Of a stretch of DNA of 64,000 bases, positions 10,153-58,324 are shown piece after piece. Under the pieces are notes generated by a model. It worked only from the letters and a program-made list of their open reading frames with translations. It was not told where the DNA came from and searched no databases. Position 1 is the first letter of the stretch. Each line of letters starts with the position of its first letter. The translations under genes and the position numbers were made by a program. Location of the stretch: positions 5,828,001 through 5,892,000 of the forward strand of contig CP099650.1 of the NCBI GenBank assembly GCA_024123915.1, read 5' to 3'. Origin of the DNA: Oxalobacteraceae bacterium OTU3CAMAD1. GTDB lineage: Bacteria; Pseudomonadota; Gammaproteobacteria; Burkholderiales; Burkholderiaceae_D.

Positions 10153-10310
10153 GAGATTTCTCGCTAGAGGATGCGTCCCGGCACACGACGGGACTTCTGA
10201 GCTCTCATTATCAAACAGCGAACATGCGGGCCGAACAGCAAGCAGAGGGGGGAAAACCCGCTTATTCCGGTTTAACCCCACGCAGCCATGCCAAACCCGC
10301 ACAGCCAGGC

Positions 10311-10352
10311 GGGGACTCGGCGTCCCCGTCGTACCCCTTGGGGTACGACCCC
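10311..10352. repeat. Family A palindromic repeat, copy 2 (twin hairpin form)
   Basis: Two adjacent hairpins: GGGGAC-TCGGC-GTCCCC at 10311-10327, then GTCGTACCCC-TT-GGGGTACGAC at 10328-10349. The upstream AAACCCGCACAGCC matches the outer arm seen in copy 4. It lies between srkA and the coiled-coil gene and has created a false N-terminal extension of the latter. Confidence 0.85.
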
Positions 10353-10405
10353 AAACCCGGGGCGCGGGCCTCAAGGCGGCATGGTTGACGGGTTTGGGTT
10401 ACATA

Positions 10406-11524
10406 TCAAACCGGCAACGGCGGCTCTTCCATCAACGCGACCTGCTCGCGCAATTCGAGGATGCGGTCTTGCCAGTAACGTTGTGTATTAAACCACGGGA
10501 ACGCGGCCGGGAAGGCCGGGTCGTCCCAGCGCCGCGCCAGCCACGCCGAGTAGTGGATCAACCGCAACGTGCGCAACGCCTCGACCAGATGCAACTGGCG
10601 CGGGTTGAATTCGCAGAAATCCTCATATCCGGCCAGGATGTCGCACATCTGACGCACCTGCTCGGCCCGCTCGCCGGACAGCATCATCCACAAATCCTGG
10701 ATCGCCGGTCCCATGCGGCTGTCGTCGAAGTCGACGAAGTGCGGCCCGGCATCGGTCCACAAGACGTTGCCACCATGGCAATCGCCATGCAGACGCAGTT
10801 GCGGCAACTCCCCCGCCCTGTCGTACGCGCGCCGCACGCCGTCCAGCGCCTGCTCCGAAACGCTGGCGTACGCCTCCCGCAGATCCGCCGGAATGAATTG
10901 ATTGGTCTGCAAGAATTCGCAAGGCTCGGTGCCGAACGTGGCGATGTCGAGCGCGGGCCGCTCCAGATACGGCTTGACCGCGCCGACGGCGTGAATGCGG
11001 GCGATGAAACGCCCGGTCCACTCCAGCACCGACGGATCGCTCAATTCCGGCGCGCGGCCGCCGTGGCGGGTGAAGACGGCAAAGCGGAAGCCGTTAAATT
11101 GGTGCAAAGTCCGGCCGTCCAGCGCCAGCGCCGGCACCACCGGAATTTCGCGCGCTGCCAACTCCTCGGTAAAGGCGTGCTCCTCCAGGATGGCGGCGTC
11201 GCTCCAGCGTCCCGGACGATAGAACTTGACCACCAGCGGCAGCGAGTCCTCGATGCCAACCTGGTAGACGCGGTTTTCATAGCTGTTCAGCGCCAGCAGT
11301 CGGCCATCGCCGCGCAGGCCGATGCTGTCGAGCGCATCGAGCACGCATTCGGGATTGAGAGCGGAATACGGGTGCGGCACGTGCACCGGCGCGGCGGCGC
11401 CGTCCAGCTCGGCGAAATCGCCGCCGTCGGCGCCGCCCTGCGGCCCGGCCATGGCGGCGGCCAGCGCGGCGGCGCGGGCGTCTTCTTCTTCGTCGTCTAA
11501 ATGATCTTGGTTATCTTGGTTCAT
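10406..11524 (-). CDS. srkA: Serine/threonine protein kinase SrkA (YihE/RdoA family)
   Basis: A 372-residue kinase of the SrkA family, which in E. coli protects against stress-induced programmed death; the fold is close to choline/homoserine kinases. The kinase core shows VVKFYRPGRWSDAAILEEHAF (ATP-binding Lys and helix-C Glu), the catalytic loop LRLHGDCHGGNVLW, and the metal-binding HFVDFDDSRMGPAIQDLWM. The C-terminus LRLIHYSAWLARRWDDPAFP is strongly conserved in the family. An N-terminal Asp/Glu/Ala-rich extension of about 45 residues is unlike the E. coli protein (about 328 residues) and looks disordered. It is divergent from the UPF0149 gene with 63 bp between starts. The assignment rests on motif order and length. 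Confidence 0.9.
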   Translation of the reverse strand: MNQDNQDHLDDEEEDARAAALAAAMAGPQGGADGGDFAELDGAAAPVHVPHPYSALNPECVLDALDSIGLRGDGRLLALNSYENRVYQVGIEDSLPLVVKFYRPGRWSDAAILEEHAFTEELAAREIPVVPALALDGRTLHQFNGFRFAVFTRHGGRAPELSDPSVLEWTGRFIARIHAVGAVKPYLERPALDIATFGTEPCEFLQTNQFIPADLREAYASVSEQALDGVRRAYDRAGELPQLRLHGDCHGGNVLWTDAGPHFVDFDDSRMGPAIQDLWMMLSGERAEQVRQMCDILAGYEDFCEFNPRQLHLVEALRTLRLIHYSAWLARRWDDPAFPAAFPWFNTQRYWQDRILELREQVALMEEPPLPV

Positions 11525-11587
11525 CCCCGCATTGTACGGGGCGCGACGTGTATACTGTCGCCTTCAACCCAATAAAAAGAGCAAGCC

Positions 11588-12295
<708 letters not shown>

Positions 12296-12306
12296 GGCCA
12301 TGCCAT

Positions 12307-12332
12307 CCCTATCCGCTCCGCAAGGGATAGGG
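12307..12332. terminator. Hairpin between UPF0149 gene and mntH
   Basis: The stem CCCTATCC / GGATAGGG has a 10-nt loop and lies 12 bp after the UPF0149 stop codon. It has no T-tract, so it is a weak terminator candidate or an RNA-stability hairpin rather than a classic intrinsic terminator. Confidence 0.35.
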
Positions 12333-12361
12333 ACAAAGTTGCACCAACTCAAGTAGAATTT

Positions 12362-12384
12362 GGGCATTCATTGTCAGGATGCCC
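12362..12384 (+). promoter_or_regulatory. Translation-initiation hairpin of mntH and start choice
   Basis: GGGCAT (12362-12367) can pair with ATGCCC (12379-12384), placing most of the ribosome site AGGA (12376-12379) in the loop next to the stem. The spacing of AGGA supports the ATG at 12385 rather than the ATG at 12379, which would itself be part of the stem. A regulatory role is speculative. Confidence 0.35.
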
Positions 12385-13716
12385 ATGTTCTCACTGCCCT
12401 TCAAGCTCCCCACCACGGCCACGGCGCCGTTCTGCCCGTCGGAAGTGGCCGGCACCGTCCAGGTGCCAGAGGGCGATCCGTTCTGGAAGAAAGTGCTGCG
12501 CTTCGCCGGTCCCGGCCTGCTGGTCTCGGTCGGCTACATGGACCCGGGCAACTGGGCCACGGCCATCCAGGGCGGCTCGCAGTTCGGCTACCAGCTCTTG
12601 TTCGTGGTGGTGCTGTCGAGTCTGGCCGCCATCGTGCTGCAATGTTTGAGCATGCGCCTGGGCATCGTCACCGGCAAGGACCTGGCGGTGCATTGCCGCG
12701 AGCAGTACAAGCCGCCGGTGGCCAAGACATTGTGGGGCTTCGCAGAAATTTCCATCATCGCCTGCGACCTGGCCGAGGTGCTCGGCTGCGCGCTGGCGTT
12801 CAAGCTGCTGCTGGGCGTGTCGCTGCCGACCGGCGTGGCACTCACCGCGCTCGACACGCTGCTCATCCTTGGCCTGAAAGGCAAGGGCTTCCGCCAGATC
12901 GAGGCGATCGTGCTGGCGCTGATCCTGACGGTGGCCACCTGCCTGTTCACCGAGCTCATTTTCGTCAAGCCGGACTGGAATGCCGTCATGGCCGGACTGG
13001 TGCCGTCGCTGTCGACCCTGTCGTCGCGTGAGCCGCTGTACCTGGCCATCGGCATCCTCGGCGCGACCGTGATGCCGCACAATCTGTACTTGCACTCATC
13101 CGTGGTGCAAACGCGCGTGGTGTCGCAAAAGGCCAGCGCCAAGCGCGAGGCGATCGGCCTGTCGCGCATCGACACTGTCGTCTCGCTGCTGCTGGCGTTG
13201 CTGATCAACGGCTCCATCCTGGTGCTGGCGGCGGCGGCCTTCCACGAGCCGGGCAACACCCGCGTGCTCGACATCGACGAGGCCTATCTGCTGCTCGCCC
13301 CCGTGGCCGGCACGGCGCTGGCGGCGACCTTGTTCGCGCTGGCGCTGCTCGCGTCCGGACAAAGCTCCACCTTCACCGGCACCATCGCCGGCCAGGTCAT
13401 CATGGAAGGGTTTCTGAAAATGAAGATCCCGTGCTGGCAGCGACGCGCCCTCACGCGCGGACTGGCGCTGATCCCGGCCATGATCGGCGTGCTGACCTTG
13501 GGTGAACATTCTGTCGGCAAGCTGCTGGTGTTGAGCCAGGTGGTGCTGAGCATGCAGCTGCCGTTCGCCATGTATCCGCTGATCAGCCTGACGTCGCAGC
13601 GCCGCATCATGGGCGAGTTCGTCAACGCATGGTGGACGACCGGGTTGTCGTGGTTCCTGTTCGCGGTGATTTCCAGCGCCAACGCGTGGCTGGTGTGGCA
13701 GGCGTTCGCGGGATAA
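12385..13716 (+). CDS. mntH: Nramp family divalent metal (manganese) transporter MntH
   Basis: A 443-residue proton-coupled Mn2+/Fe2+ importer of the inner membrane. The two Nramp signatures are intact: SVGYMDPGNWATAI (DPGN metal-binding motif in helix 1) and LGATVMPHNLYLHSSVVQTR (MPH motif in helix 6, followed by the family consensus). About eleven hydrophobic helices are visible, ending FLFAVISSANAWLVW. The length is typical of bacterial MntH (about 410-450). ATG 12385 (MFSLPFKL) is preferred over 12379 for its AGGA site. No MntR or Fur gene is adjacent. The downstream boundary is a family B repeat 24 bp after the stop. Confidence 0.93.
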   Translation: MFSLPFKLPTTATAPFCPSEVAGTVQVPEGDPFWKKVLRFAGPGLLVSVGYMDPGNWATAIQGGSQFGYQLLFVVVLSSLAAIVLQCLSMRLGIVTGKDLAVHCREQYKPPVAKTLWGFAEISIIACDLAEVLGCALAFKLLLGVSLPTGVALTALDTLLILGLKGKGFRQIEAIVLALILTVATCLFTELIFVKPDWNAVMAGLVPSLSTLSSREPLYLAIGILGATVMPHNLYLHSSVVQTRVVSQKASAKREAIGLSRIDTVVSLLLALLINGSILVLAAAAFHEPGNTRVLDIDEAYLLLAPVAGTALAATLFALALLASGQSSTFTGTIAGQVIMEGFLKMKIPCWQRRALTRGLALIPAMIGVLTLGEHSVGKLLVLSQVVLSMQLPFAMYPLISLTSQRRIMGEFVNAWWTTGLSWFLFAVISSANAWLVWQAFAG

Positions 13717-13740
13717 CGAGGCGGGGATATAACCTTGGAG

Positions 13741-13834
13741 ACACGTAGGGCGGATGAGGCGGAACGCCGTAATCCGCCATGCACGAGCCGCCGACGGAGC
13801 TTGGCGGATTACGCTACGCTAATCCGCCCTACGT
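13741..13834. repeat. Family B palindromic repeat, copy 2
   Basis: Begins ACACGTAGGGCGGATGA and ends TAATCCGCCCTACGTGG; the internal arms are GGCGGAACGCCGTAATCCGCC and GGCGGATTACGCTACGCTAA. Its right end overlaps the 3' end of the alpha/beta-hydrolase gene and supplies that gene's stop codon (13819-13821). Confidence 0.9.
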
Positions 13835-14733
13835 GGTTCAGATGGTTTTAGGCTTCCCTGTCCATCGCCGTCGCGCAAGACAAACGCTGCCACATCATCC
13901 AGCGTGGGCGCCAGCCAGCGCAGCGGCGCACCAATCGAGCCAACCAGCGTTGTGTGGCTGACCTTGTCGTAATAAAGCTCTGTGACATCTACTTGGTTAG
14001 CGCGCAGCCGCTCCGCCAGATGACCTGTGTTTTGCTGCGGATCCACCAACTTGTCACTACGCGCCGCGATCAGCAGCGCCGGCGGCGACGCGGCCGACAC
14101 ATGCCTCACAGGCTGCGATTCCGGCGGCGAATCCGGGAAGTGAAACACCGGCTTGGTTGTCGGATTCTCGATCGGCAAAAAGTCATACGGGCCGGCCAGG
14201 CCGATCCATCCGCGCAGATCCCGCACGGACATGCCCTGCTTCTTAAGCCAGCGCTCGTCGAGCGCCACCATCGCCGCATTGTACGCGCCGGAACTGTGCC
14301 CCATCACATACAGGCGCTTGGGATCGCCGCCGTAGCGGACGGCCTGCCTGGCGGCCCACGCCACGGCCTGCGCCGCGTCGTCCAGAAAATCGGGATAGCT
14401 CACCTCGGGATAGAGCCGGTAGTCGGCGACCACGGCGACAATGCCGCGCGACGCCAGCGCCCGGCCGACGAACGCATAGTCGGCCCGTTCGCCCGCCACC
14501 CAGTTGCCGCCGTAGAAAAACACCACCACCGGCGCCTTGCCGCCGGCGTCTTTCGGCCGGTAAACGTCGAGCATGCGGCGTGGCCCCTCGCCATACGACA
14601 GATTAGCGGTGCGTTCGGAGGCGCCGCCGGGCGACAACGCGTTGAGCGCCGTCAGCGGGGAGCAGGCAGCCAGCGCCAGCAGGACAGGCACGGCGACGGC
14701 AAGCGCGAGATAAGGACGAGGGATGCGGGGCAT
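13819..14733 (-). CDS. Alpha/beta hydrolase, lipoprotein (BD-FAE/HSL-like esterase)
   Basis: A 304-residue hydrolase with an N-terminal lipoprotein signal, MPRIPRPYLALAVAVPVLLA followed by lipobox LAAC. The oxyanion-hole region reads VVVFFYGGNWVAGERADYAF (YGGNW replaces the usual HGGGW). The nucleophile elbow is VMGHSSGAYNAAMVALD (GHSSG). The acid is in IAARSDKLVDPQQN and the catalytic His in DKVSHTTLVGS. This matches small-molecule carboxylesterases of the alpha/beta hydrolase 3 / BD-FAE group; the substrate is unknown. A longer GTG start at 14826 exists, but the ATG at 14733 gives a clean signal peptide, though without a strong ribosome site. The last five codons and the stop (reading PRRAD) lie in a family B repeat, so the original C-terminus has been replaced or extended. 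Confidence 0.85.
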   Translation of the reverse strand: MPRIPRPYLALAVAVPVLLALAACSPLTALNALSPGGASERTANLSYGEGPRRMLDVYRPKDAGGKAPVVVFFYGGNWVAGERADYAFVGRALASRGIVAVVADYRLYPEVSYPDFLDDAAQAVAWAARQAVRYGGDPKRLYVMGHSSGAYNAAMVALDERWLKKQGMSVRDLRGWIGLAGPYDFLPIENPTTKPVFHFPDSPPESQPVRHVSAASPPALLIAARSDKLVDPQQNTGHLAERLRANQVDVTELYYDKVSHTTLVGSIGAPLRWLAPTLDDVAAFVLRDGDGQGSLKPSEPRRAD

Positions 14734-14863
14734 GGCAATGGATGAGTTCGTTGGAATCCAGGCCAGTGTAGAACGGCGCGTCGACCCGCCCTCCTCGTTT
14801 CCGTAACGAACGGTGCGTTGATTCACTTATGAGGCGGCCTGCAGACGTGGCTACCTCGAGGAG

Positions 14864-14961
14864 ACACGTAGGGCGGATTAGGCGGAACGCCGTAATCCGC
14901 CATCTATGTGCCGCTGGCAACGCATACATGGCGGATTACGCTTCGCTAATCCGCCTACGTG
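14864..14961. repeat. Family B palindromic repeat, copy 3
   Basis: Begins ACACGTAGGGCGGATTAGG and ends TAATCCGCCTACGTG, with one C missing from the usual CCGCCCTACG. It has the same orientation as copy 2, and the two copies bracket the hydrolase gene at 13819-14733. Confidence 0.88.
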
Positions 14962-14992
14962 ATTCAGAATTTTCCGTCGTCCGATGCCACCG

Positions 14993-16003
14993 CTATTTAA
15001 CCTGCGCGCTCCAGTCGCTCAGCATATAACCACCCGGCACGCCACGGCACAAACGCGCCGATGACGCCGACGACAGCTTGAAGCCTTCCGCCGTCCACAG
15101 CCACGTCGCCTGCATGTTGCAGTCGCCCAGTCCGCGCCCTTTCGCGAAGCTGCCCAGCTCGCCCTTGTCGAACGACACATTGAGCAACTCGTTGTCCGGA
15201 GCGCCGTCGGCGTCCGTCAGCTTAGCCCGCTGCGCCGCGTACGGCGCCTTGTCATTGGCCGTCCACACAGCAAAGCTGGACTGGTAGGCGCCACGCCCGC
15301 ATTCGATCAGCAACAACACCTTCGACGCCGACAAACGATAAATCTCGCTCTGCGACTCACCGCCGCCAATCAAATCCGGCTGCTCGTCACACCCGCCCTT
15401 CGGCAACTTCTTAGTGATCATCGGCAGCAAAGCGGCATCCTGCTTGCGCTGCGCCACCGGCGCCAAGCCGCGCAGCACCGGCACGGGCACAGCCGGCAAT
15501 ACCGTGCTCGCCGGTTTGGCACCCGGCTTAACCAGTGCAGTCACAGTACCAACACGCCCCTGCAAATCATCCATCTTCAGCAACGCCGCCTTCATGCCCG
15601 CCAGCGACAGCCGCCACTTGGTTTTACCGTCCGTGACATCCGCGTACCCGGCATCCAGCAGCGCCGGCAGCAACTGAGCAATCTGCGCTGGCTTCAACTC
15701 GGCCTCCGAGGTCAAACCGGGCAAAGCCAGCTTCCCAACCCGCAAGGTCAGCGGGCCGACCGCCGTCTCATCCTGGTTGATCGCGGTCAGTTTCGCCGCC
15801 ACGGCCCCTGTCGGCCCCGCCGGACGTCCCAGCCACAACGCCACCGGCGCGCTATCGCCCTCGTCCGCCTGGTAACCAACCGCCTCGCAAGCGCGCGTAT
15901 TGTCGCAGGCAACCTCCCAATCCTTGATCGTGAAATGGGCCGCGAAGGCCGTCGAGCCAACCAGCGCCAGCGCTGCGGCAACAACATATTGCAAAATTTT
16001 CAT
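14993..16003 (-). CDS. DUF1176 domain-containing secreted protein
   Basis: A 336-residue protein with a Sec signal peptide (MKILQYVVAAALALVGSTAFA) and a mature start HFTIKDWEVACDNTRACEAVGY, the characteristic opening of DUF1176 proteins: an Asp-Trp followed by two Cys flanking a short loop. Further cysteines (GGCDEQPDLIGG, LLIECGRG, GDCNMQATWLW, ARLCRGVPGGYML) are spaced as in the family and probably form disulfides in the periplasm. Function is not known. GGAGAG six bases before the start supports 16003. It lies downstream of orn on the same strand but behind a strong terminator, so it probably has its own promoter. Confidence 0.85.
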   Translation of the reverse strand: MKILQYVVAAALALVGSTAFAAHFTIKDWEVACDNTRACEAVGYQADEGDSAPVALWLGRPAGPTGAVAAKLTAINQDETAVGPLTLRVGKLALPGLTSEAELKPAQIAQLLPALLDAGYADVTDGKTKWRLSLAGMKAALLKMDDLQGRVGTVTALVKPGAKPASTVLPAVPVPVLRGLAPVAQRKQDAALLPMITKKLPKGGCDEQPDLIGGGESQSEIYRLSASKVLLLIECGRGAYQSSFAVWTANDKAPYAAQRAKLTDADGAPDNELLNVSFDKGELGSFAKGRGLGDCNMQATWLWTAEGFKLSSASSARLCRGVPGGYMLSDWSAQVK

Positions 16004-16020
16004 GACTTACTCTCCGGACG

Positions 16021-16048
16021 AAAAAAAACAGGTTCAACCGAACCTGTT
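16021..16048 (-). terminator. Rho-independent terminator of orn
   Basis: A 9-bp perfect stem AACAGGTTC / GAACCTGTT with a 4-nt loop is followed, reading on the minus strand, by eight Ts (A-run at 16021-16028). It lies 20 bp after the orn stop codon. Confidence 0.85.
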
Positions 16049-16068
16049 CCGATGGACGCGGGCGCCCC

Positions 16069-16665
16069 TTACAGCTTGATGAAATGCTCGCGGTAGTACT
16101 TGAGCTCTTCGATCGATTCGATGATGTCGGCCATGGCCGTGTGCATCTGGTGCTTCTTGAAGCCAGCCACCATCTCGGGCTTCCAGCGCTTGCCCAGTTC
16201 CTTCAACGTCGATACGTCAATGTTGCGATAATGGAAATACGCCTCCAGCTTCGGCATATAACGCACCATGAAGCGGCGGTCCTGGCCGATGGTGTTGCCG
16301 CACATCGGCGCTTTGCCCTTCGGCACCCACTGCTTCATGAACTTGATCAACTCTTCCTCGGCCTGCGCCTCGGTCACCGTCGACGCCTTGACCTTGTCGA
16401 TCAGGCCGGAACGGCCGTGCGTGCCCTTGTTCCAGGCGTCCATGCCGTCGAGCACCGCGTCGCTCTGGTGCACCACCATCACCGGACCCTCGGCCAGCAC
16501 GTTCAGGTGCATGTCGGTGACGACCACGGCCACTTCGATGATGCGGTCGGTGTCCGGCTCCAGACCGGTCATCTCCATATCGACCCAGACCAGATTCATT
16601 TCATTCTGGCGCGGGGTAATGACCGCAGGAGCGGAACCTTCTGGCAAATCGTTAGCTTGTGACAT
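16069..16665 (-). CDS. orn: Oligoribonuclease
   Basis: A 198-residue 3'-5' exoribonuclease that degrades 2-5-nt RNAs and linear pGpG, the final step of c-di-GMP breakdown, which is relevant to the c-di-GMP operon in this window. The DEDDh catalytic residues are visible: [20 protein letters not shown] (Asp, Glu), [16 protein letters not shown] (Asp), and [19 protein letters not shown] (His and Asp). In the last block the usual HRALDDI is HTAMADI; the catalytic His and the Asp five residues later are kept. An N-terminal extension of about 20 residues precedes the core. It is divergent from the M48 protease gene. Confidence 0.95.
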
Positions 16666-50051: not shown

Positions 50052-50570
50052 ATGCGACTCTTGATTATCGCGGCGGCCGCGTTCGCCATTGCCGGCCCAT
50101 CGTTTGCGGCCCCGTTCGAACCTGGCGTTTATCTCGGCGTCTCCGGCGGACGCGCGTCGGTCTCGTCCCAATACGCGGACAACAGCAGCGACTTTTCAGT
50201 CGGCGGCGCGATCGGCTACCAGTACACCCCCAACTTCGGCTTCGACGTCTACACACGCGGCCTGAGCCTCAATCCGTTCCGTGGCATGTACACCGAGGCA
50301 GGTTACTATCCGGATCGCACCTTTGGCATCGCCGTCCAGGGCACGGTACCGCTCAACGAGCGCTTAAGCCTGTTCGGCCGCGCCGGCGTCGGCCGTACCT
50401 CGATGCACGCCACCCGCAGCGATATGCCCGACCGCGACGAGACCGATCCGATGGTCGGCGTCGGCATCAGCTACGCCTTCAACCGCCACTGGTCGATCGG
50501 CGCGGACGTTAGCTATCTGACCAAAACGGAAGTCTCGCTGTATTCGTTCGGCGCGCGCTTCAATTTCTAG
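50052..50570 (+). CDS. Small outer-membrane beta-barrel protein
   Basis: A 172-residue protein with a signal peptide (MRLLIIAAAAFAIAGPSFA) and an eight-strand-type barrel: GVYLGVSGGRASVSSQYADN, SVGGAIGYQYTPNFGFDVYT, then SIGADVSYLTKTEVSLYSFG. It ends ARFNF with the C-terminal Phe needed for barrel insertion. It resembles the OmpX/OmpA-N-terminal fold; ligand unknown. AAGGA sits five bases before the start. Its TAG shares CTAG with the stop codon of the convergent LysR gene. Confidence 0.82.
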   Translation: MRLLIIAAAAFAIAGPSFAAPFEPGVYLGVSGGRASVSSQYADNSSDFSVGGAIGYQYTPNFGFDVYTRGLSLNPFRGMYTEAGYYPDRTFGIAVQGTVPLNERLSLFGRAGVGRTSMHATRSDMPDRDETDPMVGVGISYAFNRHWSIGADVSYLTKTEVSLYSFGARFNF

Positions 50571-51472
50571 GCGCAACCGCGCACGATCCACTCGCTCAGG
50601 CTGTCGAGCGCTTCCCACGGCTCGCGGCCGTGGGGACGCAGCAGGAAATAACCGCGCCGCGTGCTCAGCGCCGGCGCCGGCAGCGTGACCAGCTGACCGT
50701 CCCGCACCAACTCATCGACCAACGGACGCCAGCCCAGCGCCACGCCGTGCCCGGCGATCGCCGCCTGGATCAACAACGGGTAATTGCCCAGGGTGAGGCT
50801 CGGAATATCGCCGCCGTCGGGCAGCCCCTGCAGCCGCGCCCAGTCCTGCCAGGTCATCCAGCGGTTTTGGCCGCCCCCACCCAAATGCAGCAACGGCAAG
50901 CGCAGCACGTCGGCGGACGCGCCGCCCGCTTGCGCATGCCGCTCCAGCCAGGCCGGCGCGCAGACCGGCACCACCAGCTCCGGCAAGATCTGCCGCGCAT
51001 CGCAGCCGGGCCATTGGCCGTCGCCGAACGAGATCGCCAGATCCACCGCCTCGCCACGGATGTCGAACGCGTTTTGCGAAGTGACGATGCGCACGTCGAG
51101 CTCGGGTCGCAACTCCTGAAACGCCGCCAGACGCGGCATCAGCCAGAACTGCGCGAAGGCGAAATCGGTCGCCACCGTCACCACTTGCCGGGTGCGCCGC
51201 GCGCGCAGCTTGTCGACGGCCACATGGATCGCCGCCAGATGATCGCGCACCGCCTCGTGCAAGGTGACACCGTCGGCCGTCAACGTCACGCCGCGATGGG
51301 CGCGCTTGAACAGGGGCGTGCCCAAATCCTTTTCCAGCGCGGCGATGCGCTGGCTGACGGCCGGCTGGCTGGTGCCGAATTCCTCCGCCACCAGCGTGAA
51401 GTTCAGGTGCCGCACCGCCGATTCGAAGAACACCAAACTGTGCAGCGGGACGCCTTGATGTGGATTAGCCAT
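50567..51472 (-). CDS. LysR-type regulator of choline-sulfate utilization
   Basis: A 301-residue LysR protein. The winged helix is in FFESAVRHLNFTLVAEEFGT and SQPAVSQRIAALEKDLGTPL; the effector domain contains VVTVATDFAFAQFWLMPRLA and a GcvA-like end (GHGVALGWRPLVDELVRDGQ). It is divergent from betC with a 175-bp gap, and its sequence and position fit the choline-sulfate utilization transcription factor family that accompanies betC-choXWV. It probably senses choline, choline-O-sulfate or betaine; the ligand is inferred. Confidence 0.85.
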   Translation of the reverse strand: MANPHQGVPLHSLVFFESAVRHLNFTLVAEEFGTSQPAVSQRIAALEKDLGTPLFKRAHRGVTLTADGVTLHEAVRDHLAAIHVAVDKLRARRTRQVVTVATDFAFAQFWLMPRLAAFQELRPELDVRIVTSQNAFDIRGEAVDLAISFGDGQWPGCDARQILPELVVPVCAPAWLERHAQAGGASADVLRLPLLHLGGGGQNRWMTWQDWARLQGLPDGGDIPSLTLGNYPLLIQAAIAGHGVALGWRPLVDELVRDGQLVTLPAPALSTRRGYFLLRPHGREPWEALDSLSEWIVRGCA

Positions 51473-51647
51473 AAATTTTTCTTATGTTCCGATAATTTAT
51501 TCTGCCCTCAAGACGCTGAATTTGCAAAGGAATTCTCAAATTCATACATAAGCGCGGTTTATATTATCCGAATATGAATATGCAAATTGATACGTTCATA
51601 ATTTTCGGCCGGCATCGCAGAATGCGTGCATCGAACCATTTACGCAG
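51473..51647. promoter_or_regulatory. Intergenic control region of the choline-sulfate cluster
   Basis: An AT-rich gap between divergent lysR and betC. TTATCCGAATATGAATATGC (about 51565-51584) and TTCTTATGTTCCGATAAT (51479-51496) contain related TTATCCGA/TCCGATAA half-sites, plausible LysR binding sites near each promoter. No gene is seen. Confidence 0.4.
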
Positions 51648-53213
51648 ATGCCCCTTATGCAGCCTTCCCAGCCCGCTTTACAACCGAATATCCTGATCCT
51701 GATGGCCGACCAACTGACCGCGCGTGCCTTGGCTGCATACGGTAATTCGGTCACCTCGACGCCGCAGATCGACGCCCTCGCCGCCGCCGGCGTGGTCTTC
51801 GATTCGGCCTATTGCAATTCGCCGCTGTGCGCGCCGTCACGCTATGCGCTGATGACCGGCACCCTGCCGTCGGCCAACGGCGGCTACGACAACGCCGCCG
51901 CACTGTCCTCCGAGGCGGTGACGTTCGCCCATTACCTGCGCCACGCCGGCTACCGCACCATCCTCTCGGGCAAGATGCACTTTTGCGGCGCCGACCAGTT
52001 GCACGGCTTCGAGGAACGCCTGACGACCGACATCTATCCCGCCGACTTCGGCTGGACGCCGGACTGGACGCAACCGGACGCGCGCCCGGACTGGTATCAC
52101 AACATGTCGTCGGTGATCGACGCCGGCCACTGCGCGCGCAGCAACCAGCTCGATTTCGACGACGAGGTCGTGTTCGCCGCGCGCCAGAAACTGTTCGACC
52201 TCGCCCGCGATCCCGACCGCAGACCGTTCTGCATGACGGTGGCGATGACGCACCCGCACGACCCCTACGCCATCTGCTCGCCGTACTGGGAGCAATACGG
52301 CGATGACGAGATCGACATGCCGCGCGTGCCCGAGGCGCCGGCCGGCGAGGACCCGCATTCGCGCCGCCTGCGCGCCGTGATCGGCCTGGACCAGACGCCG
52401 GTCACGCTGGAGCAGACGCGCCGCGCGCGCCGCGCCTACTACGGCGCCATCTCGTATGTCGACGAGCAAATCGGCGTGCTGCTGCGCGCGCTGCGCGAAT
52501 CTGGCCAAGCCGACGACACCGTCATCATTGTCACCTCCGACCACGGCGACATGCTGGGCGAACGCGGCCTCTGGTACAAGATGAACTTCTTCGAACCGGC
52601 CAGCCGCGTGCCGCTGATTGTCCATGCGCCGCAACGGTTCCAGCCGCATCGCGTGGCCGAGTCGGTGTCGCTGGTCGATCTGCTGCCGACCTTGCTCGAC
52701 CTGGCACGCGATGGCGCGACGCCGCCGGCGGGTGCGGCATTCCCGCTCGACATCGCCGGTCGCAGCCTGCTGCCGCACCTGAACCAACGCGGCGGCCACG
52801 ACGGCGTAGTGGCCGAGTATCTGGCCGAGGGCGCGCTGGCGCCCATCGTCATGCTGCGCCGGGGCGCCTGGAAATTCATCCACTCGCCGGCCGATCCCGA
52901 CCAGCTCTACCACCTCGGCGACGATCCCGACGAGTTGCACAACCTGGCATCGAACCCGGCCAGCGCCGACGTGCTGGCCGGGTTCCGCGCCGACACCGTG
53001 CGGCGCTGGGACTTGCCGGCGCTGCACGGCCAAGTGCTGGCCAGCCAGGCGCGCCGGCGCTTTATCGGCGCCGCCAACGCGCTCGGCGTCCATCACGCGT
53101 GGGATTACGAGCCGCCGCGCGACGCCAGCAAACGCTACATCCGCAACCATCTCGACCTCGACGCGCTGGAAGCCAGGGCGCGCCTGTCCGCCCGACCAGG
53201 AGCCGACGCATGA
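51648..53213 (+). CDS. betC: Choline-sulfatase
   Basis: A 521-residue type I sulfatase that hydrolyses choline-O-sulfate to choline and sulfate. The formylglycine signature is CNSPLCAPSRYALMTG (Cys61-Ala-Pro-Ser-Arg65, to be oxidised to formylglycine); metal ligands lie in NILILMADQLTARALAAYG and in VTSDHGDMLGERGLWYKMNF. The C-terminal domain of choline sulfatases is present (RRWDLPALHGQVLASQARRR). No signal peptide, so it acts in the cytoplasm after uptake. Two ATGs (51648, 51657) are possible starts. Its stop overlaps choX (ATGA), coupling substrate cleavage to choline transport genes. Confidence 0.94.
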   Translation: MPLMQPSQPALQPNILILMADQLTARALAAYGNSVTSTPQIDALAAAGVVFDSAYCNSPLCAPSRYALMTGTLPSANGGYDNAAALSSEAVTFAHYLRHAGYRTILSGKMHFCGADQLHGFEERLTTDIYPADFGWTPDWTQPDARPDWYHNMSSVIDAGHCARSNQLDFDDEVVFAARQKLFDLARDPDRRPFCMTVAMTHPHDPYAICSPYWEQYGDDEIDMPRVPEAPAGEDPHSRRLRAVIGLDQTPVTLEQTRRARRAYYGAISYVDEQIGVLLRALRESGQADDTVIIVTSDHGDMLGERGLWYKMNFFEPASRVPLIVHAPQRFQPHRVAESVSLVDLLPTLLDLARDGATPPAGAAFPLDIAGRSLLPHLNQRGGHDGVVAEYLAEGALAPIVMLRRGAWKFIHSPADPDQLYHLGDDPDELHNLASNPASADVLAGFRADTVRRWDLPALHGQVLASQARRRFIGAANALGVHHAWDYEPPRDASKRYIRNHLDLDALEARARLSARPGADA

Positions 53214-54217
53214 ATTACGCATCCCCACAGAACCGTCTTCATACGGCGCACCGCTCCATTCGCCGCGCCGCCACCACGCTGGCCGCGCTGGCCGCCGCCG
53301 CCGTCATGATCGCCGCGATCGCCGACACCGCCCGCGCCGCCGAACCCGAATCCTGCCGCGCTGTACGCATGGCCGATCCCGGCTGGACCGACATCGGCGC
53401 CGCCAATGCGCTGGCCGGCATCGTCCTCGAAGCGCTCGGCTACGAACAAAAGGTGCTGCCGCTGTCGGTGCCGATCACCTACGCAGGCTTGCAAAAAGGC
53501 CAGATCGACGTCTTCCTCGGCAACTGGATGCCGGCCCAGCGTCAGCTGGTCGACCCGCTACTGAAGGCCGGCACCATCGACTTCCTGCACGCCAACCTGC
53601 CGGGCGCCAAGTTCACGCTGGCCGTGCCGGACTACGTGGCGCGCGCCGGCGTGCGCACCTTCAGCGACCTGGCCAAACACGCCGACAAGTTCGACCGCAA
53701 AATCTATGGCATCGAATCGGGCGCGCCGGCCAATCAATCCATCAAGAAAATGCTGGCTGCCCAAAGCTACGGCCTCGCCGGTTGGACCCTGGTCGAGTCG
53801 AGCGAACAAGGCATGCTGAGCCAAGTGGCCCGCAAAGGCCGCAACGCCGAATGGATCGTGTTCCTCGCCTGGGAACCGCACCAGATGAACAATACCTACA
53901 AGCTAGTCTACCTCGACGGCGACGACCTGTATTTCGGACCGAAATTCGGCAGCGCCAGCGTCAACACTGTGGCGCGCCGTGGCTACCGCGCGGCCTGCCC
54001 CAACGTCGGCCGGCTGTTCGCCCAGATCGAATTCAGCGCGCCGCTCGAACACGCCATCATGGCCGATATGCTCGACAAGAAGCAGCCTGCGCGGACCGCC
54101 GCCCTGCGCCAATTGCGCGCCCGGCCCGAGCTGGTGAACGCCTGGCTGGCGGGCGTCACCACCCGCGCCGGCGGCGACGCCGCGTCCGCCGTGCGCGCCC
54201 GCCTGGCCCAGCCTTGA
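53210..54217 (+). CDS. choX: Choline ABC transporter periplasmic substrate-binding protein
   Basis: A 335-residue protein with a long twin-Arg-like or Sec signal peptide ending near DTARAA. The mature start CRAVRMADPGWTDIGAANAL and IDVFLGNWMPAQRQLVDPLL are typical of ChoX (OpuAC family), including aromatic residues that cage the trimethylammonium group (Trp in DPGW and GNW, further aromatics in WEPHQMNNTYKLVYL). It should deliver choline to ChoVW. The start at 53210 is fixed by overlap with betC; the longer frame from 53099 is a betC shadow. Confidence 0.93.
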   Translation: MNYASPQNRLHTAHRSIRRAATTLAALAAAAVMIAAIADTARAAEPESCRAVRMADPGWTDIGAANALAGIVLEALGYEQKVLPLSVPITYAGLQKGQIDVFLGNWMPAQRQLVDPLLKAGTIDFLHANLPGAKFTLAVPDYVARAGVRTFSDLAKHADKFDRKIYGIESGAPANQSIKKMLAAQSYGLAGWTLVESSEQGMLSQVARKGRNAEWIVFLAWEPHQMNNTYKLVYLDGDDLYFGPKFGSASVNTVARRGYRAACPNVGRLFAQIEFSAPLEHAIMADMLDKKQPARTAALRQLRARPELVNAWLAGVTTRAGGDAASAVRARLAQP

Positions 54218-54255
54218 TTTCCCCATCTCTTCATCCACTACCGCCGGAGCCACCG

Positions 54256-56490
54256 ATGCGACACGCACTGCGATTCAAACCCCTTCACCTTCTCGTGTTG
54301 CAGGCGCTGGCCTGCTCCGCCCAAGCCTACGCGGCGGCCGACCCGGCCCCGATCGCCGCCACCACCGATACGCCGATCGAAACCGTGTTCGTGCAGGGAC
54401 AAGGCCGCCAGGTACAAAACATCACGCGCAAGGATCTGGCCGAGGCCATCCCCGGCACCAGTCCGCTCAAGACGTTGGAGAAGTTACCGGGCGTATCGTT
54501 CCAGTCTGCCGATCCATTCGGCGCCTACGAGTGGTCGGCGCACATCTCCATCCGTGGCTTCAGCCAGAACCAGCTGGGGTTCACCCTGGACGACATTCCG
54601 CTCGGCGACATGAGCTACCGCAACCACAACGGCCTGCACATCAGCCGCGCCATCTCGTCCGAAAATGTCGGCAACGTTACGGTGTCGCAAGGCACGGGCG
54701 CGCTCGGCACGGCGTCGACCAGCAATCTGGGCGGCACCGTCAGCTTCACCACGCGCGGGCCGACCGACGTTGCCGGCGCCACCTTGGCGCAAACGCTGGG
54801 CAGCGACAGCACGTCGCGCACTTTCGTCCGCTACGACACCGGCCTGCTGCCGACCGACACCAAAGCCTACTTGTCGCTGACGCGCCAGCGCGCCGAAAAA
54901 TGGAAAGGCGACGGCGGCCAGGACCAGAACCAGTTCAATTCCAAGGTCGTGCAAAAACTGGGCGCCAGCCAGTTGAGCGCCTTCTTCAATTACTCCGAGC
55001 GCGACGAGACCGACTACCAGGACTTGTCGTTCGACAGCGTGCGCCGGCTCGGCTACAAATGGGACAACTACGCGCCCGACTGGCAGCGCGCGGTCGCGGC
55101 CGCACAGGGCGTCTATAGCGGCGGCGTCAACAATCTCGACGATGCCTATTACCTGGGGCGCGGCTTGCGCAACGACTGGCTCGGCGGCGTCGCGCTGGAG
55201 TGGAATCCAAGCGATACCTTGCGCTTGAAAACCACTGTCTACGATCACCGCAACCACGGCGAAAGCCATTGGTACACGCCATACACGCCGTCGTCGGCCA
55301 TCGTGCCGATCTCGGTGCGGGCGCAAACCTACGCCATCGACCGCACCGGCGTGGTCAGCGATTTGACGTGGGAGGTGGGCAATCACACCCTTACGGCTGG
55401 CGTCTGGGGCGAGCGCAGCGTGCACCGCTGGTCGCGCGCCTTCTTCGCCGTCAATGGTCCCGAAAGCACCGACCACTTCCTCGACAATCCGTTCTCGACG
55501 GTGATCGCCCAGCGCTTCGTCAGCAAGACCACGCAGCTGTATTTGCAGGACAGTTTCGCGGTGCTGGACGACAAGCTCAAGCTCAGCTACGGCTTCAAGA
55601 GCACCAAGGCGCGCATCGACGGCGACAATCAGATCGGCGGGCGCGCCGGCGGCAAGCTGGAGGCGTCGAAAAAATTCCTGCCGCAGGCCGGCCTGACCTA
55701 TGCGTTGACCGACCGCGAGGAATTGTTCTCGTCGTGGGCCAAAAACATGAACGCCTACCAGGCAGGCGCCGACGGTCCGTTCTCGCAGACGCAAGCGGCA
55801 TTCGACCTGAGCGCCGGCAAAGTCAAGCCGCAGACCTCCACCACGGTCGACCTCGGCGTGCGCTCGCGACGCGGTCCGCTGCAGGCGTCGCTGGCGCTGT
55901 ACGCGGCCGACTTCAAGAACCGGCAGTTGAATGTGGCGACCTGCACCGGCATCGTCGGTTGCCCGACCACCTTGGCCAACGTGGGCAAGGTAGAGACCAA
56001 GGGACTGGAAGCGGCGCTGGACTGGAAGATCGCGCGTGAATGGGCCTGGTTCAATTCCTTCACCTACAACGACTCCACCTACAAGCAGGCGCCGGTGTAC
56101 TACGAGGGCGCCACACCAATCAACGTCAACGGCAAGCGCGTCGTCGACGCGCCGAAAGTGCTGTTCAACACCGAAGTGTCATATGAACACGCCGGCTGGT
56201 TCGCGCGCGCCGACGCCAAATATACGGGAAAACGCTACTACACCTATCTCAACGACAGCCCGGTGCCGTCGTTCTGGCTGGCAAACCTGAGCGGGGGCTA
56301 CAAGCTCGGCAACATCGGGCCGTTCAAGAGCGCGTCGCTGCAGTTGAACGTGACCAATGTGTTCGACAAGCGCTACTTCGCCACCATCGGCACCAATGGC
56401 TTCGCCAGCAGCGACCCGTCGGGCGGTTTCGCCACCATGCTGGCCGGAGCTCCGCGCGCCGCCTTCCTGACCCTGAACGGCAAGCTGTAA
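54256..56490 (+). CDS. TonB-dependent outer-membrane receptor within the choline cluster
   Basis: A 744-residue receptor: signal peptide ending near AQAYAAA; plug domain with ITRKDLAEAIPGTSPLKTLE, LPGVSFQSADPFGAYEWSAH, ISIRGFSQNQLGFTLDDIPL and the GTASTSNLGGTVSFTTRGP block; then a 22-strand-type barrel with the TonB-receptor ending LNVTNVFDKRYFATIG. The terminus LTLNGKL lacks the usual aromatic last residue. It lies 38 bp after choX and 24 bp before choV in one operon, which suggests import of choline-O-sulfate or a choline-containing compound across the outer membrane. The start at 54256 has GGAG; the frame upstream is a choX shadow. Confidence 0.92.
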   Translation: MRHALRFKPLHLLVLQALACSAQAYAAADPAPIAATTDTPIETVFVQGQGRQVQNITRKDLAEAIPGTSPLKTLEKLPGVSFQSADPFGAYEWSAHISIRGFSQNQLGFTLDDIPLGDMSYRNHNGLHISRAISSENVGNVTVSQGTGALGTASTSNLGGTVSFTTRGPTDVAGATLAQTLGSDSTSRTFVRYDTGLLPTDTKAYLSLTRQRAEKWKGDGGQDQNQFNSKVVQKLGASQLSAFFNYSERDETDYQDLSFDSVRRLGYKWDNYAPDWQRAVAAAQGVYSGGVNNLDDAYYLGRGLRNDWLGGVALEWNPSDTLRLKTTVYDHRNHGESHWYTPYTPSSAIVPISVRAQTYAIDRTGVVSDLTWEVGNHTLTAGVWGERSVHRWSRAFFAVNGPESTDHFLDNPFSTVIAQRFVSKTTQLYLQDSFAVLDDKLKLSYGFKSTKARIDGDNQIGGRAGGKLEASKKFLPQAGLTYALTDREELFSSWAKNMNAYQAGADGPFSQTQAAFDLSAGKVKPQTSTTVDLGVRSRRGPLQASLALYAADFKNRQLNVATCTGIVGCPTTLANVGKVETKGLEAALDWKIAREWAWFNSFTYNDSTYKQAPVYYEGATPINVNGKRVVDAPKVLFNTEVSYEHAGWFARADAKYTGKRYYTYLNDSPVPSFWLANLSGGYKLGNIGPFKSASLQLNVTNVFDKRYFATIGTNGFASSDPSGGFATMLAGAPRAAFLTLNGKL

Positions 56491-56514
56491 ACGCCACCTT
56501 CGAGAAAGCATGCC

Positions 56515-57486
56515 ATGTCCAACGTTAAAGTCTCACTGCGCAATGTCTGCAAGGTGTTCGAGTCGAGTCCCGCGGCCGCGCTTGACGATGTCTCGCTCGA
56601 CATTGCCGAAGGTGGCATCTGCGTGCTGATGGGATTGTCGGGTTCGGGTAAGTCGACCTTGCTGCGCACCATCAACGGCCTGGCGCCGCCGTCGAGCGGC
56701 CAGGTGCTGATCGACGGCGTCGACCTGAACCGCCTGGCGCCGCGCCAGTTGCAGCAACTGCGGCGCGAGACGATGGGCATGGTGTTCCAGTCGTCCGCGC
56801 TGTTTCCGCATCGAAGTGTGATCGACAACGCCGCCTTTGGCCTGGAGATCGCCGGTGTCGGACGGGCGGAGCGGCACCGGCGCGCGTCGGCCATGCTGGA
56901 ACAGGTCGGGCTGCTGGCGCATGCGCAACAGTACCCTCATCAGCTGTCCGGCGGCATGCGCCAGCGGGTCGGCCTGGCGCGCGCGCTGGCGGTGGACCCG
57001 GCGCTGCTGCTGATGGACGAGGCGTTCTCCGCGCTCGATCCGCTCAAGCGCCGCGAAATGCAGGAGTTGCTGCTGGCCTTGCAGCGCGAGCGGCGTCGCA
57101 CCATTGTGTTTGTGTCGCACGACATCGATGAAGCGTTGCATCTTGGCGACCAGATCGCCCTGCTGCGTGGTGGCCGCCTGGTTCAGCAAGGTACCTCGCG
57201 TGAACTGTTGAGCAATCCGGTCAACGACCACGTGCGCGAATTCTTCCACAGCGCCGATACGTCCAGCCATTTGCTCGCGACCGACCTGATCGATCACGAA
57301 GCGGTGGCCACGCCGGCGCCCGAGCAGCCCAGCGTCGCCGCCGATGCGAGGCTGAGCGAATTGATACCGCGACTGACTGCTTATCAGATGCCATTGACCG
57401 TGCGCGACGCCAGCGGTGTGGCGTTGGGGCTGATCACCGCCGCCAGCGCGCTGCGCATCATCTCGCGCGCCAGCGCACGGGGCTGA
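56515..57486 (+). CDS. choV: Choline ABC transporter ATP-binding protein
   Basis: A 323-residue ATPase of the ProV/OpuAA type. Walker A LMGLSGSGKSTLLRTINGL, Q-loop VFQSSALFPHRSVIDNAAFG, signature HQLSGGMRQRVGLARALAVD and Walker B LLLMDEAFSALDPLKRREMQ are intact, with H-loop VSHDIDEAL. A C-terminal regulatory tail (about 240-323) is short compared with full ProV. It is followed after 1 bp by choW. Gene order here is X-receptor-V-W rather than the common X-W-V. Confidence 0.93.
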   Translation: MSNVKVSLRNVCKVFESSPAAALDDVSLDIAEGGICVLMGLSGSGKSTLLRTINGLAPPSSGQVLIDGVDLNRLAPRQLQQLRRETMGMVFQSSALFPHRSVIDNAAFGLEIAGVGRAERHRRASAMLEQVGLLAHAQQYPHQLSGGMRQRVGLARALAVDPALLLMDEAFSALDPLKRREMQELLLALQRERRRTIVFVSHDIDEALHLGDQIALLRGGRLVQQGTSRELLSNPVNDHVREFFHSADTSSHLLATDLIDHEAVATPAPEQPSVAADARLSELIPRLTAYQMPLTVRDASGVALGLITAASALRIISRASARG

Positions 57487-57487
57487 C

Positions 57488-58324
57488 ATGTTCGAACAAC
57501 TCCATCAATATTTGCCGCTGGGAGACGCGGTCAACGGGGTCGTCCGAATGCTGATCGATCACAACGGCGGCCTGTTCGACAGCGCCGGGCGCGTCATCGA
57601 AGGTTTGGCCGGTGTTATTGAAAATGTGCTGCAACTGGCGCCAGCGTGGGTGGTGATTACCTTTGCCGTGTTCGTTGGCTGGCGTCGCCTCTCGTGGCGC
57701 TTCGCGGTGTTTGCAGGATTGTCCTTGTTGCTGATCGCGGTGCTGGGCTATTGGCCGCAGATGATCGTCACCTTGGGACTGACCTTGTCGGCCACGTTGA
57801 TCAGCCTGGCGTTGGGCGTACCGCTTGGAATTTTAGCGGCCAGGAACCGGCATGTGCACGCGGTGCTACGCCCGGTGCTGGATTTCATGCAGACCATGCC
57901 GGCCTTTGTTTATCTGATCCCGGCGGTGATGCTGTTCGGCCTCGGCCGCGTTCCGGGCATCATCGCTACCGTGATTTTCGCGATGCCGCCGGCGGTGCGG
58001 CTGACGACCATCGGGATTTTGCAGGTGGATAAGGAGCAGCTGGAAGCCGGGCAGGCGTTTGGCGCCAGCGGGTGGCAGTTGCTGTTCAAGGTGCAGTTGC
58101 CGCTGGCTTTGCCGGCGCTGATGGGCGGCATCAATCAGACCATCATGATGGCCTTGTCGATGGTGATCGTCACGTCGATGGTCGGCGCCGGCGGATTGGG
58201 TGGAGAGGTATTAAGCAGCATCCAGCAACTGGACGTGGGATTGGGTTTTGAAAGCGGCTTATGCGTGGTGTTGTTGGCCATCATATTGGACCGCATCACA
58301 CAGAGTTTTGGCGAACGGTCATGA
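57488..58324 (+). CDS. choW: Choline ABC transporter permease
   Basis: A 278-residue inner-membrane permease of the ProW/OpuAB type with about six helices. After an amphipathic start come WVVITFAVFVGWRRLSWRFA, LGLTLSATLISLALGVPLGI, DFMQTMPAFVYLIPAVMLFG and the cytoplasmic coupling segment EAGQAFGASGWQLLFKVQLP, then GINQTIMMALSMVIVTSMVG. All agree with choline/betaine permeases. It ends the operon; a family B repeat and a terminator follow. Confidence 0.93.
   Translation: MFEQLHQYLPLGDAVNGVVRMLIDHNGGLFDSAGRVIEGLAGVIENVLQLAPAWVVITFAVFVGWRRLSWRFAVFAGLSLLLIAVLGYWPQMIVTLGLTLSATLISLALGVPLGILAARNRHVHAVLRPVLDFMQTMPAFVYLIPAVMLFGLGRVPGIIATVIFAMPPAVRLTTIGILQVDKEQLEAGQAFGASGWQLLFKVQLPLALPALMGGINQTIMMALSMVIVTSMVGAGGLGGEVLSSIQQLDVGLGFESGLCVVLLAIILDRITQSFGERS

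Follow-up and report, generated by a model that had tools for sequence, protein, structure and literature searches.

A TonB-dependent receptor encoded within a betC operon as a candidate outer-membrane entry step for choline-O-sulfate

The window analyzed here, a 64,000-nucleotide stretch of Oxalobacteraceae bacterium OTU3CAMAD1 (contig CP099650.1, positions 5,828,001 to 5,892,000), comes from a 7.48-Mb genome in a single contig and contains a choline sulfatase (betC) operon with an unusual member, a gene encoding a TonB-dependent receptor (TBDR). From gene content and conservation, we think it likely that this receptor takes choline-O-sulfate across the outer membrane with energy from TonB. 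The betC-choX-receptor-choV-choW order described in the first-pass annotation of this DNA was confirmed on the + strand, with a 4-bp overlap between betC and choX followed by gaps of 38 bp (choX-TBDR), 24 bp (TBDR-choV), and 1 bp (choV-choW). Judged from this spacing and overlap, together with conservation, the receptor gene looks like a true member of the operon, presumably cotranscribed with its neighbors.

Results

The Receptor Gene Is Conserved with betC

BetC was sought in the 74 genomes available for the genus (Duganella and related bacteria), and the receptor in 148 relatives, these 74 included. betC is present in eight of the 74, and an orthologue of the receptor occurs in exactly the same eight, both genes being absent from the other 66 (two of which are incomplete: G006, 83%; G056, 60%). 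The seven other orthologues are 77 to 96% identical to the window receptor, with other members of its family in the genus reaching at most 66%, and the order lysR (on the opposite strand), betC, choX, receptor, choV, choW is identical in 7/7 of their loci. The recurrence of the whole arrangement in seven other genomes, and the joint presence or absence of betC and receptor, point to more than chance. Each of the eight betC-bearing Duganella genomes also has a second copy of the receptor elsewhere, 60 to 63% identical to the first. The copy in the window's genome (L031, G000:C1:1606190-1608430; 60% identical) stands alone, flanked by genes that we named by eye as GGDEF/EAL-type and chemotaxis-receptor-like; in several related genomes (e.g., L237 and L223), a PF04185-type gene follows the second-copy receptor.

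Outside the genus, betC was found in 7/245 genomes at the family level and in 60/398 at the phylum level (E ≤ 1e-190). At the order level, searches scoring the best 3 and best 2 candidates per genome detected betC in 22 of 399 genomes (E ≤ 1e-120) and the receptor family in 18 (E ≤ 1e-60). This gave 87 betC-bearing genomes overall, 86 loci of which were examined, a contig-end fragment (G1036) being left out; three of the 86 (L059, L061, and L102) end early at contig ends. Since a profile of the family only had missed other receptors, giving no score to L119, L123, and L125, we repeated the betC survey by tblastn, using a diverse set of 21 receptors as queries. A receptor lies inside the betC operon in nine loci, eight of them from the over-sampled genus and the ninth from genome G144, where the order is betC-TBDR-choX with gaps of ∼20 bp. 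A tenth case, outside the 86-locus survey, came from a receptor-led scan and is a Xylophilus metagenome-assembled genome (MAG; L219) with the order betC, receptor, choW, choX and a LysR gene downstream on the opposite strand. A search for the receptor clade beside betC, as proposed in the first-pass annotation, thus turned up receptors of its family in seven further genomes of the genus, in G144, and in the Xylophilus MAG. Not counted as operon members were STN-domain receptor parts in L119, L123, and L125, three loci of one family, where they are encoded on the strand opposite to betC at a distance of ∼3.2 kb (full Pfam matches), and further receptor matches at the outer ends of L038 and L042. 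In L042 (1-2434, from G144), another receptor fragment, about 4 kb past the lysR of the betC cluster, adjoins a taurine dioxygenase-related gene (213 bits, below the cut-off of 313).

The Receptor Family Is Found near Genes for Small Sulfur and Phosphorus Compounds

The receptor-led scan, covering one genome for each of 84,980 species, yielded at least 597 stretches, at least 560 of them encoding relatives, from which we retained the 80 best. Together with the earlier loci and the window, and with one short locus dropped, this made 112 receptors that we classed by their neighbors within 4 kb; removal of five duplicate copies left 107 distinct receptors. Ten are beside betC, 23 beside a PF04185-type phosphoesterase, 27 beside a PhoD-like enzyme, one beside exbB/exbD only, and 46 beside other genes, with a PF04185-type match only further off in L162 and L197. 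When neighbors picked by size were run through Pfam, 7/10 contained PF04185, and the PhoD identity was confirmed in 2/2 PhoD-like neighbors run. The one PF04185 neighbor tested against finer models best matched acid phosphatase and then phosphocholine-specific phospholipase C, below cut-off, and L186 behaved alike. Genes resembling exbB and exbD, as well as tonB-like genes (identified by blast with a protein that we had named by eye), stand beside several family receptors.

Receptors associated with taurine genes in Methylobacillus glycogenes, a Gammaproteobacteria MAG, and an Aquabacterium MAG belong to the same family as the window receptor. Two are located within tauABCD operons (L171, 10001-15866; L166, about 9881-16379), and the third, from the Aquabacterium MAG, is near a taurine dioxygenase (tauD) gene (L169, 9896-15774). 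All four Tau proteins of L171 score over taurine cut-offs; of the three L166 products compared, the dioxygenase is over its cut-off, and the binding-protein and permease fragments are under. These neighborhoods suggest that the tau-linked members are candidate taurine receptors. Small sulfur or phosphorus compounds thus recur among the neighbors of the family, through tau genes and through PF04185 and PhoD-like phosphoesterases.

betC-Linked Receptors Form Two Separate Groups

In a 71-row maximum-likelihood tree, the eight Duganella receptors form one clade (100/100), nested in a 34-row clade (100/100) with 15 PF04185-linked rows. The G144 and Xylophilus receptors pair with each other (100/100), and their sister group consists of the taurine-linked receptors, three in number, which differ from them in having a taurine operon or dioxygenase nearby instead of betC; support for all five together is 100/99. 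Forcing the 10 betC-linked receptors to share one origin costs 247 log-likelihood units (p-AU 0.00015) and was rejected, so recruitment of a receptor to betC probably happened twice. Either the receptor joined betC on two occasions or one family member replaced another, and both would mean that the same family was chosen repeatedly. The BetC tree also splits the two groups, receptor-less Burkholderiales being nearer to Duganella (93/91, not starred), and a single origin is compatible with the BetC data (constraint p 0.154). As to whether the receptor tree follows the BetC tree, we read the two as agreeing inside Duganella, apart from where the root falls, and as disagreeing between lineages, owing to the apparent double recruitment of the receptor.

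The two betC-linked groups have a residue in common. Position 337 is a Ser in 10/10 betC-linked receptors and a Gly in 90/90 other distinct family members aligned, taurine-linked receptors included, seven distant rows having been left out beforehand. As a null, we counted how often non-Duganella pairs of 50 to 72% identity share at least one private residue with Duganella: 6/1567 pairs do, the betC-linked pair included, and 5/1566 other pairs share one or two, the pairs not being independent. Two more residues, W308 and R420, are common to both groups but not private to them and were set aside as weaker markers. In an AlphaFold2 model, residue 337 is near the end of a strand (322-341), before a loop (342-352) that should be extracellular given the alternation of short turns and long loops. 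Since G335 and W339, which are invariant in 27 rows, flank it with the same parity, Ser337 probably faces the barrel lumen.

The Receptor Is Distinct from Siderophore and B12 Receptors Tested

The receptor shows a plug domain (PF07715, 42.5 bits, cut-off 23.9) and a barrel (PF00593, 158.2 bits, cut-off 27), as well as a TonB-box-like stretch, seen by eye, near residue 40. Its AlphaFold2 model, built from 27 alignment rows, is confident, with a pLDDT of 84.6 and a pTM of 0.86, and its structural matches extend over the whole receptor. The nearest solved structures by sequence are YncD and PqqU (E 4.9e-17 and 1.7e-16, residues 429-714), which we take to be one protein under two names, and they occupy the first two Foldseek ranks for the model, with PqqU as the top match. 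PqqU, the receptor for pyrroloquinoline quinone, was solved with a small metal-free ligand; it differs from the window receptor in sequence (∼21% identity), and the score of the latter with the PqqU model is below the cut-off (NF041535, 79.7 bits vs. cut-off 1200). VIA-align places FoxA, FhuA, PqqU, and YncD within ∼1 Z unit, with BtuB close behind, which is so tight that the fold alone does not tell the ligand.

Siderophore and B12 identities were rejected on scores and on a tree. The best NCBIfam match of the receptor is the siderophore model TIGR01783, at 133.9 bits below its cut-off of 223.5, and the BtuB model TIGR01779 gave no match at E ≤ 0.001. In a 32-row tree of 12 family rows and 20 receptors of the window's genome, the family forms one clade (100/99), and four siderophore-type receptors (three scoring above the TIGR01783 cut-off and the fourth just under it, with 219 of 223.5 bits) form another (98/96). 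The B12-type receptor stands elsewhere; this comparator, L143, is itself below its cut-off, with 428 of 600 bits. The clustering with siderophore or B12 receptors that, according to the first-pass annotation, would speak against its proposal was therefore not seen among the receptors tested in this same-genome tree. At least 3 of 112 receptor-barrel matches in the window's genome (G000) belong to the family (E ≤ 1e-40, best 7 of 52 candidates scored).

Another receptor invites comparison. SftP is encoded in a sulfate-ester cluster of Pseudomonas putida under a LysR-type regulator, and its likeness to the window receptor lies in this sulfate-ester link and this type of regulator. SftP has been listed in the same large cluster as, for example, PupA, FhuE, and FpvA (PMC3400609).

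Genes of the Operon

The coordinates of the operon and its surroundings are given in Table 1. BetC, ChoX, and the product of the divergent lysR, a gene just upstream of betC that is absent from the first-pass annotation, pass the cut-offs of their NCBIfam models. The best PDB match of BetC is the choline sulfatase 6fny (E 1.2e-141); the protein carries the motif C-A-P-S-R-Y-A-L-M-T-G, which we take to be the sulfatase signature, and inspection of its sequence by eye showed no signal peptide. ChoX best matches 2reg (E 2.4e-83) and has W, D, W, F, and W at the aromatic-box positions. One of these, Y119, is Phe in 10/10 receptor-linked loci and likewise in many receptor-less betC loci, so it is not informative for the receptor.

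A scan for promoter-like and terminator-like sites on the + strand detected none in the intergenic gaps of the operon, nor upstream of betC, and therefore says little. Compared with known betC/choX(WV) clusters, such as the bet operon of Sinorhizobium meliloti, the window operon has BetC, ChoX, an ABC transporter, and a LysR protein of the same or related families, but it differs by the TBDR inside it and by its order, X-receptor-V-W. Its ATPase and permease are related to those of the ChoXWV transporter but below the equivalog cut-offs. The departure from choXWV noted in the first-pass annotation is real: the order is X-V-W here and X-W-V in several loci from other classes of the phylum (L089, L092, and L095).

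Table 1. Features of the betC locus, in positions of the window
Feature	Position	Strand	Basis
lysR-type regulator of choline sulfate use, divergent	50567..51472	-	NCBIfam TIGR03418, 336 bits (cut-off 324.8)
Intergenic region, expected site of operon promoter and LysR site	51473..51647		Inferred from divergent arrangement
betC, choline sulfatase	51648..53213	+	NCBIfam TIGR03417, 783.5 bits (cut-off 433)
choX, periplasmic choline-type binding protein	53210..54217	+	NCBIfam TIGR03414, 402 bits (cut-off 379)
TonB-dependent receptor (TBDR), 744 aa	54256..56490	+	PF07715 and PF00593 over cut-off
Receptor Ser337 codon; end of barrel strand, before loop 342-352	55264..55266	+	Alignment and AlphaFold2 model
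choV, ABC ATPase of betaine/choline type	56515..57486	+	TIGR01186, 317 bits (cut-off 327); TIGR03415, 313 bits (cut-off 484)
choW, ABC permease of choline type	57488..58324	+	TIGR03416, 335 bits (cut-off 363)

Discussion

In the route that we propose, the receptor would bind choline-O-sulfate at the cell surface, and energy from TonB-ExbBD would drive the ester through it into the periplasm, where ChoX would catch it and pass it on to the ChoVW importer for transport across the inner membrane. A cytoplasmic BetC would then cut it to choline and sulfate, and the divergent LysR protein would control the operon. The first and last of these steps, receptor and BetC, draw on gene content; each transport step is inferred. 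Several lines of evidence count in favor of this route: the operon is conserved in 8/8 betC genomes of the genus, and the linkage recurs in G144 and the Xylophilus MAG; the same family appears to have been drafted twice, though the window's genome has 112 receptor-barrel matches to draw on; and Ser337 is common to only the two betC-linked groups. The receptor is also separate from the siderophore and B12 receptors tested, with a nearest solved receptor whose ligand is small and metal free. A small sulfur- or phosphorus-bearing ligand, in particular, is what the taurine-linked sisters of the second betC group and the PF04185 and PhoD-like neighbors point to.

Other results weigh against this reading. 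No receptor is found in the operon in 77/86 surveyed betC loci, so another entry route, presumably porins, must suffice there, and the receptor probably serves as an extra for scavenging at low concentrations and is not a requirement. At the order level, betC and the receptor family occur together in 2/399 genomes with ∼1 expected (best 3 and 2 candidates per genome scored), which is not an enrichment; in both of these genomes, the two genes are neighbors. Ser337 was picked out after the fact, its test being made once the column had been seen. Finally, the substrate range of the ABC transporter is unsure since ChoV and ChoW are under NCBIfam equivalog cut-offs, though their best matches are betaine/choline types.

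The first-pass annotation had suggested energized capture either of choline-O-sulfate or of a larger choline-bearing molecule. Energized capture is supported by the evidence above, and the small ester is favored over the larger molecule by the taurine-linked sisters and by the absence from BetC of a signal peptide recognizable by eye. We regard import through the receptor of a larger molecule bearing choline or phosphocholine (a lipid headgroup, glycerophosphocholine, or a conjugate) as unlikely; the operon would then handle the choline part. Typical TBDR ligands are indeed large, and PF04185 enzymes stand beside many of the receptors that surround the Duganella group in the tree, the one enzyme tested matching acid phosphatase and phosphocholine-specific phospholipase C models, below cut-off. 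However, BetC aside, none of the five operon genes encodes an esterase, phospholipase, or phosphatase, BetC is of the choline-sulfate type, and the sisters of the second betC lineage are linked to taurine, a very small solute.

Quite unlikely, in our judgment, is a receptor that accepts a broad range of small organosulfur or organophosphorus zwitterions and is coregulated with betC by happenstance, an idea that fits the occurrence of a single family with tauABCD or tauD, PhoD-like, PF04185, polyamine-type ABC, and betC genes. The betC-linked copies, however, form two clades of their own with a private residue, and the second, 60 to 63% identical copy kept elsewhere in the eight betC-bearing Duganella genomes argues for specialization. 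As for the chance insertion into the operon of a receptor for iron-siderophores or of some unrelated one, the abundance of receptor barrels in the genome and the TIGR01783 best match (134 bits, under its cut-off) lend it something, but the gene is kept in eight species, is linked again to betC in two further genomes with other orders, and belongs to a clade separate from the siderophore-type receptors tested, which makes such a bystander most improbable.

Beyond choline-O-sulfate as the ligand of the window receptor, the neighborhoods raise a wider idea that we advance tentatively and would sooner doubt than assert. This may be an undescribed TBDR family for very small zwitterions of the type N+-C-C-(O)-(S or P)O3, namely choline-O-sulfate, taurine, phosphocholine or phosphoethanolamine, and 2-aminoethylphosphonate. 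Its copies would stand beside the importer or esterase of their own ligand, and those linked to betC on two occasions would each have exchanged Gly for Ser at one and the same position of the binding lumen. Porins are usually regarded as the way through the outer membrane for solutes below about 600 Da, and choline-O-sulfate has a mass near 183 Da. A receptor dedicated to so small a solute, from a family recruited repeatedly and paired with choline-sulfate and taurine genes, would mean, if true, that some bacteria spend energy scavenging small organic sulfur and phosphorus compounds, suggesting a dedicated gate for such nutrients. It would also give a candidate ligand to one receptor among the 112 barrel matches of the genome, with residue 337 as a single handle on its specificity.

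Among the matches listed in open-licence literature, with subscription journals mostly outside, we found no description of a receptor encoded within a betC operon. In the excerpts of these articles that were available, choline sulfate or taurine and TonB receptors, where named, occupy separate passages (PMC9281055, PMC3400609, PMC5443232, PMC7142613, PMC12581299, PMC3557214, PMC2864759, PMC8079746). Sulfonate-related receptors have been predicted in sphingomonads from gene context (PMC7142613).

Additional Observations

Around the betC loci, three Duganella genomes have an extra ABC ATPase gene (L036, 2284-4095; L037, 14195-15811; L039, 14364-16178), 1.5 to 3.4 kb past the end of choW, whose product is 48 to 50% identical to ChoV over ∼206 residues. 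BetA (TIGR01810, E ≤ 1e-120) gave only subthreshold matches in five of the eight Duganella betC genomes and none in the other three. In the window, a ribosomal RNA operon apparently begins at ∼58.5 kb, after choW, as read by eye.

Elsewhere in the family, an Undibacterium locus (L229, 12403-16411) has a receptor gene followed by an apparent polyamine-type ABC transporter, the binding protein of which is below cut-off. In L041 (2470-14949), L040, L073, L074, L075, L076, L199, and L228, the receptor is beside exbB/exbD-like and PF04185-type genes, to which L041, L199, and L228 add tonB-like (by eye) and PhoX-like genes, and L041 also a PhoD gene and a second receptor; such loci look like a phosphate-ester uptake cluster. 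Roseateles and other Burkholderiales loci (L160, L164, L168, and similar) combine a receptor with a PhoD-like enzyme, a binding protein, a phosphodiesterase-like protein, permease-like ORFs, and an ATPase, for which the nearest model in L160 (Roseateles-type) is 2-aminoethylphosphonate transport, below cut-off. Family members also occur in MAG records titled Klebsiella pneumoniae (L174 and L201) and Kuenenia (L198), titles that may be misassigned: in the 71-row tree, L174 falls among rows from Cellvibrio/Steroidobacteraceae and L198 joins a Sphingomonadales MAG, and the neighborhood of L201, which is outside the tree, resembles that of L202.

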